A stretch of 64,000 bases of DNA from Candidatus Kapaibacterium sp. (GTDB taxonomy: Bacteria > Bacteroidota > Ignavibacteria > Kapaibacteriales > UBA4661): NCBI GenBank assembly GCA_025455065.1, contig JALONG010000003.1, positions 186,001-250,000 of the forward strand, written 5' to 3'. Made by a program: the position numbers and the translations under genes. The notes under the pieces were generated by a model. It worked only from the letters and a program-made list of their open reading frames with translations. It did no database searches and was not told the origin of the DNA. Of the stretch, positions 44,638-45,470 are shown piece after piece. Positions within the stretch are counted from its first letter, which is position 1. Every line of letters begins with the position of its first letter.

Positions 44638-44669
44638 TTTGGATGCTTCCGAAAAAAGGTGTACCTTTG
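44638..44669 (+). promoter_or_regulatory. Bacteroidota-type promoter of the split tRNA-fMet gene
   Basis: TTTG (44638-44641), a 20-base spacer and TACCTTTG (44662-44669) match the TTTG/TAnnTTTG consensus. The -7 box ends 15 bases before the tRNA 5' end. This is the best full promoter match in the window. Confidence 0.65.
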
Positions 44670-44717
44670 TAGTCTATTCAATACCGCGAGGTGGAGCAAT
44701 TGGTAGCTCGTTGGGCT

Positions 44718-45386
44718 CAAGGTAATTGGTGGGAAGTTCTTTATGGATACAAAACAAAAAGGTGATATAGCTGAACAAGCCGCAATTCTTGAAGCACTCA
44801 AGCGTGGTTGGAATGTTCTAAAACCAGTGGGAGACCGTCTTTCATACGACCTTGTGTACGAACAGTCTGGTTCTTTCATCAAAATTCAAGTCAAGTCTGC
44901 TTGGTTCGATACATCCAGAAAAAACTGGGTTATTGATACACGACGGACGAAGACGAATCGCCGTAGAATGATACGGGATTCCTATTCTCCAGATGATTTT
45001 GACTTTGCCTTGGTTTATATTGATGAACTCAATATTTTCTATATCTTTCCTGTATCTGTTTTTATCAGGTATGCTAGTGAAATTCACCTAGTTGAAACTG
45101 ATAAACGTCAGCGAAAACCACAGTCAGCACTGTATCGCAACGCATGGAACCTTCTCACAGAAAGGGCTGTACACAAAGAAATTTGTGTATGATTTTCTGT
45201 CAAACTCGGGGAAGCCGTTTGCTGGGTAATCCCGAGCCAAGTTCTTCAAAAAGACTGAAGAAAAGGTGTAGAGACTTAATGGCAGACATCTTCGGTATAG
45301 TCAATTTTTTTGACTATGCAAAGATGAAGAGAAAGTCCAGACCACAAACCGATGCAAGTCGGGCAACGAAAGTTGTAGATGGTACG
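44718..45386 (+). other. Group I self-splicing intron (669 nt) in tRNA-fMet
   Basis: The 5' exon ends in U and the intron ends in G, as group I introns require. Downstream of the intron ORF the core elements occur in order. P-like AACTCGGGGAAGCC lies near 45203-45216, Q-like AATCCCGAGCCAAG at 45228-45241, R-like GTGTAGAGACTTAA at 45266-45279 and S-like AAGAGAAAGTCC at 45327-45338. P7 can form between GACTT of R and AAGTC of S. A P8-like hairpin (ATAGTCA/TGACTAT) sits between them. A tentative guide sequence GGT (44728-44730) could pair with exon GCU, giving the U-G wobble at the splice site. The Q and R forms resemble subgroup IC3 tRNA introns. Confidence 0.88.
44743..45192 (+). CDS. Intron-encoded PD-(D/E)XK homing endonuclease (I-Ssp6803I-like)
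   Basis: The product has 149 residues and begins 25 bases inside the intron. It is of the short PD-(D/E)XK family found in tRNA group I introns (Pfam PDDEXK_5 type). KGDIAEQAAILEALKRGWNVLKP is the N-terminal helix with Glu11, YDLVYE gives Asp36 and IKIQVKSAW gives Gln49-x-Lys51 in place of the more usual Glu-x-Lys. A basic segment (RRTKTNRRRM) and the C-terminal RQRKPQSALYRNAWNLL complete the fold. Such enzymes cut the intron-less tRNA-fMet anticodon region and drive intron homing. The frame is intact with no stop or shift. Confidence 0.92.
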   Translation: MDTKQKGDIAEQAAILEALKRGWNVLKPVGDRLSYDLVYEQSGSFIKIQVKSAWFDTSRKNWVIDTRRTKTNRRRMIRDSYSPDDFDFALVYIDELNIFYIFPVSVFIRYASEIHLVETDKRQRKPQSALYRNAWNLLTERAVHKEICV

Positions 45387-45432
45387 CATAACCCAAAGGT
45401 TGTCGGTTCAAGTCCGGCCCTCGCTACAAAAC

Positions 45433-45470
45433 AAAAAGCCGCATAAAAACTGAGTTTGTGCGGCTTTTTT
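45433..45470 (+). terminator. Rho-independent terminator after tRNA-fMet
   Basis: AAAAAGCCGCA and TGCGGCTTTTTT pair around a ~16-base loop, ending in six T at 45465-45470, 7 bases past the tRNA 3' end. It may also serve the convergent alkyltransferase-like gene. Confidence 0.9.

Follow-up and report, generated by a model that had tools for sequence, protein, structure and literature searches.

A putatively mobile group I intron encoding an I-Ssp6803I-type endonuclease interrupts the initiator tRNA gene of a Kapaibacterium relative

The tRNA-fMet gene of Synechocystis sp. PCC 6803 contains an intron of 655 nt with a 150-aa ORF that encodes the homing endonuclease I-Ssp6803I (PMC1995217; PDB 2OST). 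According to a review, the PD-(D/E)XK homing enzyme is tetrameric, and homing enzymes of the PD-(D/E)XK and His-Cys box types are placed together in "protist and cyanobacterial genomes" (PMC3943268). The tRNAscan-SE 2.0 paper counts 36 genomes in which fMet or Ile2 is missing because of group I introns, and names such introns in tRNA-fMet (Gloeobacter) and tRNA-Ile2 (Burkholderia, Acidovorax) (PMC8450103). Our literature search returned no report of fMet introns in Bacteroidetes or Kapabacteria, which is weak evidence because many subscription papers lie outside its coverage. Here we analyze a 64-kb stretch of a Candidatus Kapaibacterium draft genome (the window), in which, with high confidence, we find the initiator tRNA gene interrupted by a mobile group I intron with an I-Ssp6803I-type endonuclease, whose splicing and DNA cleavage are predictions.

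Direct reading of positions 44685-45426 reveals a tRNA-fMet gene in two halves, broken between positions 33 and 34 and separated by 669 nt, with exons that span exactly 1-33 and 34-73, as an earlier note on this DNA had described (Table 1). ARAGORN folds the joined exons into a tRNA-Met(CAT) cloverleaf, and on inspection they carry the marks of an initiator, with an unpaired C1 x U72 (the commoner form of the 1:72 mismatch being C1 x A72), A11:U24, G29-31:C39-41 and CAU, in agreement with the assignment made in that note; the initiator fold holds, and only the word "flawless" slightly overstates it, since the T stem contains one U-G pair. The gene falls into an annotation blind spot, as ARAGORN without introns misses it and the intron mode recovers the span 44685-45427 under the wrong name, tRNA-Leu(caa). 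The window T stem reads GTCGG/CCGGC vs GCAGG/CCTGT in all congeners, with a compensatory change of A51-U63 to C51-G63; co-conversion is disfavored as its origin, since the genus-typical AGGTT is retained between intron and T stem, and no donor was located. Bacteroidetes promoters follow the consensus TTTG/TAnnTTTG, and a putative match lies upstream of the split gene, where a sigma-70 scan detects no promoter. Together with the predicted terminator, this match suggests that the split tRNA-fMet is an independent transcription unit.

Table 1 Features of the split tRNA-fMet locus, in window coordinates
Feature	Position	Strand	Basis
Putative Bacteroidetes-type promoter (TTTG 44638-44641, TAccTTTG 44662-44669)	44638..44669	+	consensus match by inspection; inference
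tRNA-fMet 5' exon, positions 1-33	44685..44717	+	direct reading; joined exons in ARAGORN
Group I intron, 669 nt, after U33, terminal G	44718..45386	+	direct reading; RF00028; comparison of 35 introns
P1 extension, 5' strand GUGGGAAGUUC, pairs with 45147-45158	44729..44739	+	-15.2 kcal/mol; strand-swap permutation
Homing endonuclease ORF, 149 aa, PF11645, I-Ssp6803I-type	44743..45192	+	profile match, 2OST match, catalytic residues
P1 extension, 3' strand, within ORF	45147..45158	+	pairs with 44729-44739
Internal guide GGGCU, within ORF	45164..45168	+	core alignment, 35 introns
P2 hairpin, GAAA loop, overlaps final ORF codons	45170..45189	+	8 pairs, compensatory change in all
P3 (45196-45202 with 45280-45286) around P4, P5, P6, P6a	45196..45286	+	core alignment and covariation
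P4 (45205-45210 with 45231-45236), within P3	45205..45236	+	core alignment and covariation
P7, guanosine-binding helix (45273-45277 with 45333-45337)	45273..45337	+	5 pairs, 100% paired
P8 stem-loop	45287..45326	+	core covariation
P9 with hairpins P9a and P9b (GAAA loop)	45341..45383	+	core covariation
tRNA-fMet 3' exon, positions 34-73	45387..45426	+	direct reading; joined exons in ARAGORN
Intrinsic terminator of the tRNA gene	45433..45469	+	terminator prediction

The Rfam group I model RF00028, proposed earlier as a check, matches 45143-45378 (model 1-253) with 59.1 bits and E 1.9e-12, above the gathering score of 50, and is the sole Rfam match in the window and the sole group I match in the host genome. 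Homologous endonuclease loci were drawn from 84,980 species genomes, yielding 34 further introns with both exons recognizable, and the insertion lies exactly after U33 in 35/35, the window included. With a hand-drawn group I structure laid over the 35 aligned cores, we find 95.4% core pairing and compensatory change at 37/53 pairs; the structure was drawn from the window sequence, so that the first figure leans towards the window while the compensatory changes do not. The core covariation score is 0.540, compared with 0.200 for shuffled controls, 0/500 of which score as high; sliding the structure along the alignment gives no more than 0.115. RNAalifold unaided recovers most core helices except P7, a pseudoknot that cannot be drawn there; the fifth P7 pair is variously U-A, G-C or A-U among the 35 introns. 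An archaeal-type, protein-spliced intron is disfavored by the full ribozyme core evident from RF00028 and covariation, and the window intron is predicted to splice in a guanosine-dependent manner.

The internal guide GGGCU pairs with C44718, U44717 (wobble), C44716, G44715 and G44714, and its first three G are invariant among the 35 introns. U33 thus faces a guide G in a U-G wobble at the 5' splice site and the intron closes in G, the splice boundary that had been read from the window alone. The P1 extension is specific to each locus, with the 20 ORF-bearing introns averaging -15.5 kcal/mol for their own strands vs -10.8 kcal/mol when strands are swapped between loci, and the 15 ORF-less introns -11.6 vs -7.1 kcal/mol; permutations as good as the own strands number 0/20,000 for both classes alike. 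In the window this stem closes four nucleotides short of position 44743, where the ORF starts, and the stem takes in the start codon in several loci of the Omnitrophota type (L051, L053, L056). The window ORF contains the 3' strand of the stem together with the guide and P2, and the comparison shows that the 3' end of the ORF doubles as part of the predicted ribozyme, to which it gives the guide, P2 and one P1-extension strand. Relative to the sister copy, dS is 0.17 in the last 20 codons vs 0.80 before, in agreement with a probable double use as RNA, 20 codons being few; the low value also means that this tail says little about selection on the protein. Since the ORF end belongs to the ribozyme, the splicing fold and enzyme translation should compete, and the overlap between P1 extension and ORF may couple translation to splicing.

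The ORF matches PF11645 with E 5.4e-50 and I-Ssp6803I (PDB 2OST) with E 7.1e-59, 89/144 residues (62%) being identical, which places the enzyme in the I-Ssp6803I type named in the earlier note. The intact 149-codon PD-(D/E)XK frame recognized there holds up as well, and none of its residues Glu11, Asp36, Gln49 and Lys51 varies among 35 homologues. By analogy with I-Ssp6803I, the window enzyme would cleave the intronless 23-bp anticodon site, a target sequence shared by the joined exons and empty congeners. The host is a Kapaibacterium relative, which bears out the FCB-type assignment, and the nearest copy, 85% identical, lies in a genome of the same genus (G001), on a contig from a Candidatus Kapaibacterium MAG. 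We find the intron and endonuclease in 2/8 congeners; in the other six tRNA-fMet is uninterrupted and the endonuclease is absent. Alignment of G001 (L022) with the empty site of G003 (L007) gives flanks that are 89% identical right to the exact junction, while the window shares an aldehyde dehydrogenase neighbor, 77-89% identical, with five further empty sites at orthologous loci (L005, L006, L008, L009, L010). The 23-bp target is identical in 5/6 empty congeners, and those genomes thus appear open to invasion.

The strongest alternative is that the intron is splicing-competent while its endonuclease is defunct, so that the element is inherited vertically and is at present immobile. The distribution allows this, as only those two congeners have the intron and their copies are mutual nearest neighbors on the enzyme tree, where the window enzyme pairs with that of G001 (100/100), such that the intron may be ancestral and since lost elsewhere; the endonuclease ORF is also broken in the relatives L041, L047, L057 and L059. 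The window ORF, however, is intact with its catalytic residues retained, and comparison with the sister copy gives dN 0.099 against dS 0.68, a dN/dS of about 0.15 that places the protein under purifying selection; moreover, G003 lacks the intron despite flanks so similar to those of G001. We therefore regard a defunct endonuclease as unlikely.

A second alternative, in which the split gene is dead and the draft has failed to assemble an intact initiator tRNA gene encoded elsewhere, turns on the copy number of the initiator gene. We find no intact tRNA-fMet in the host genome (a draft of 131 contigs), where a search with the joined exons returns just the two halves and none of 38 tRNA matches is an initiator. 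Two other host CAT tRNAs (L062, L074), considered as hybrids of the two exons, were rejected, as initiator features are absent. tRNA-Ile(GAT) and tRNA-Ala(TGC), usually found in rRNA operons, are missing from the same 38 matches, so the draft may miss rRNA-operon regions and a second fMet could reside in an unassembled repeat; the earlier description of a sole initiator gene agrees with the search and carries this assembly caveat. Against a dead copy, the exons retain the full initiator fold, the compensatory T-stem change included, the ribozyme core is intact, the intron-free congeners have exactly one full-length fMet each (6/6), and 18/20 other intron hosts tested show no full-length fMet. 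Taken together, these observations make a dead copy very improbable. That the halves resemble a tRNA by chance, or result from an assembly artefact, can be dismissed almost outright, with nothing found in its favor: 35 loci from many assemblies share the identical junction and a covarying core, which excludes a chance origin of the split layout.

Turning to the family as a whole, the enzyme is present in 1/395 sampled genomes of the host phylum, and its further hosts, many of them known from MAG contigs for which binning can err, include Spirosoma, Saprospiraceae, Flavobacterium, cyanobacteria, Omnitrophota, Uhrbacteria, Pseudomonadota, Desulfococcaceae and Planctomycetota. A copy from Desulfococcaceae groups with one from Saprospiraceae (99/92), nested within a Bacteroidota clade of the enzyme tree. 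Horizontal spread, suggested in the earlier note, is well supported for the family by this cross-phylum nesting and by the patchy presence within genus and phylum; a recent donor from another phylum is not borne out for the window genome, whose nearest relative belongs to the same genus. A strict pattern for short ORF-less fMet introns returned 0/197 genomes of the class, the pattern being too strict for this to mean absence.

Phages and plasmids were considered as vehicles and rejected: the element of the window genome has no plasmid match, phage records match only at about 31%, and a scan of viral contigs with the core pattern gives 58 stretches, of which three lie in CAU-anticodon tRNAs and none is joined to a tRNA-fMet 3' exon resembling that of the window. 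The viral contigs L138, L158 and L168 have related group I introns, without this endonuclease, within CAU-anticodon tRNAs. Four other viral contigs (L097-L100, at about 2001-2500) encode free-standing endonuclease relatives (55-57%) whose stop codon overlaps an intronless CAT tRNA; that tRNA has an altered anticodon stem in L097 and L099, possibly rendering the site resistant. Among cellular genomes, the Spirosoma genomes G404 and G405 (L104, L105) have a second, intact and atypical tRNA-Met(CAT) with an altered anticodon stem besides an intron-bearing fMet elsewhere, and L197 (G187:C1:920262-920330) is a tRNA-fMet with a related orphan intron, no family endonuclease being found in G187.

The endonuclease gene occupies either of two places. 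It lies within the P1 loop in 20 loci, the window included, and 58-216 nt downstream of the tRNA, beyond the terminator, in 15 loci (L023-L025, L027, L029, L033, L036, L039, L040, L042, L043, L052, L054, L055, L059), where the ORF-less intron measures 242-340 nt. Placement switches at least six times on the enzyme tree, three of these being forced by well-supported branches. In L033, the P1 loop of the ORF-less intron (L033:2539-2660) contains a decayed endonuclease C terminus, seen as two collinear pieces in different frames, ESSKRQKLP and VWDLILHRAVPKEISG-stop, and an intact outside gene is found at L033:3001. The chain score of this remnant is 51.7 vs 23.4 +/- 3.4 in shuffles (0/300 as high), and none of the other eight ORF-less introns long enough for testing contains decayed pieces above shuffles. 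At least one intron has thus lost an inner copy while an outer gene is present. The origin of collaborative homing arrangements has been called unclear, with turnover proposed as an alternative in phages (PMC10448857), and L033 provides direct sequence evidence for that alternative. A separate arrangement is found in Neolewinella agarilytica (L198, G416:C37:178300-188700), where a tRNA 3' fragment and the endonuclease gene lie about 8.7 kb away from an intron-bearing tRNA-fMet; the intervening segment has a tyrosine-recombinase-like ORF, as if an integrative element had used the tRNA end as an attachment site.

We suggest, as a joint reading that is plausible if somewhat short of probable, that the fMet introns form a chromosomal series in which the endonuclease gene shifts in and out by turnover, the intronic copy decaying as an outside copy takes over, and in which, for intronic genes, a stem formed with the gene's 3' end, closing either immediately ahead of its own start codon or across it, makes enzyme synthesis and tRNA splicing mutually exclusive.

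For the window, a mobile, splicing intron would act as follows. The split gene would be transcribed alone, from a promoter upstream of 44685 to the terminator at 45433; the core would bind guanosine in P7 and direct a cut after U33, held by P1 on the guide, and U33 would then be joined to C34 to give tRNA-fMet. Unspliced RNA would double as mRNA for the 149-aa endonuclease, with ribozyme folding and translation competing over their common ORF end. If the enzyme behaves as I-Ssp6803I does, it would recognize the uninterrupted anticodon region TCGTTGGGCTCATAACCCAAAGG and cut intronless alleles, and repair of the cut allele would copy the intron in. An essential and apparently single-copy gene for translation start would thus rely on a mobile ribozyme, and the literature searched contains no such case for this phylum. 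The family picture is more interesting than the window element itself, and the family is a useful one, in which a single endonuclease and a single 23-bp site go with two gene placements and with hosts from many phyla.

Set against known systems, the window intron resembles the Synechocystis tRNA-fMet intron in host gene, in the size of intron and ORF, in endonuclease family and in catalytic residues, and differs from it in host phylum. Like the introns of the tRNAscan-SE 2.0 paper, it conceals an essential CAU-anticodon tRNA from annotation; the main text of that paper covers cyanobacteria and beta-proteobacteria, and some hosts found here may be among its 36. Phage collaborative homing (PMC3984707, PMC10448857), in which an ORF-less intron stands beside a free-standing endonuclease gene, is matched in layout by the 15 relatives with outside genes and not by the window element, whose ORF is intronic; the phage cases concern protein genes, whereas these relatives are chromosomal tRNA genes, and the fMet family, unlike the phage systems, has both placements within one endonuclease family. 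The window layout is thus already known from Synechocystis, and its kind extends far beyond the cyanobacteria.
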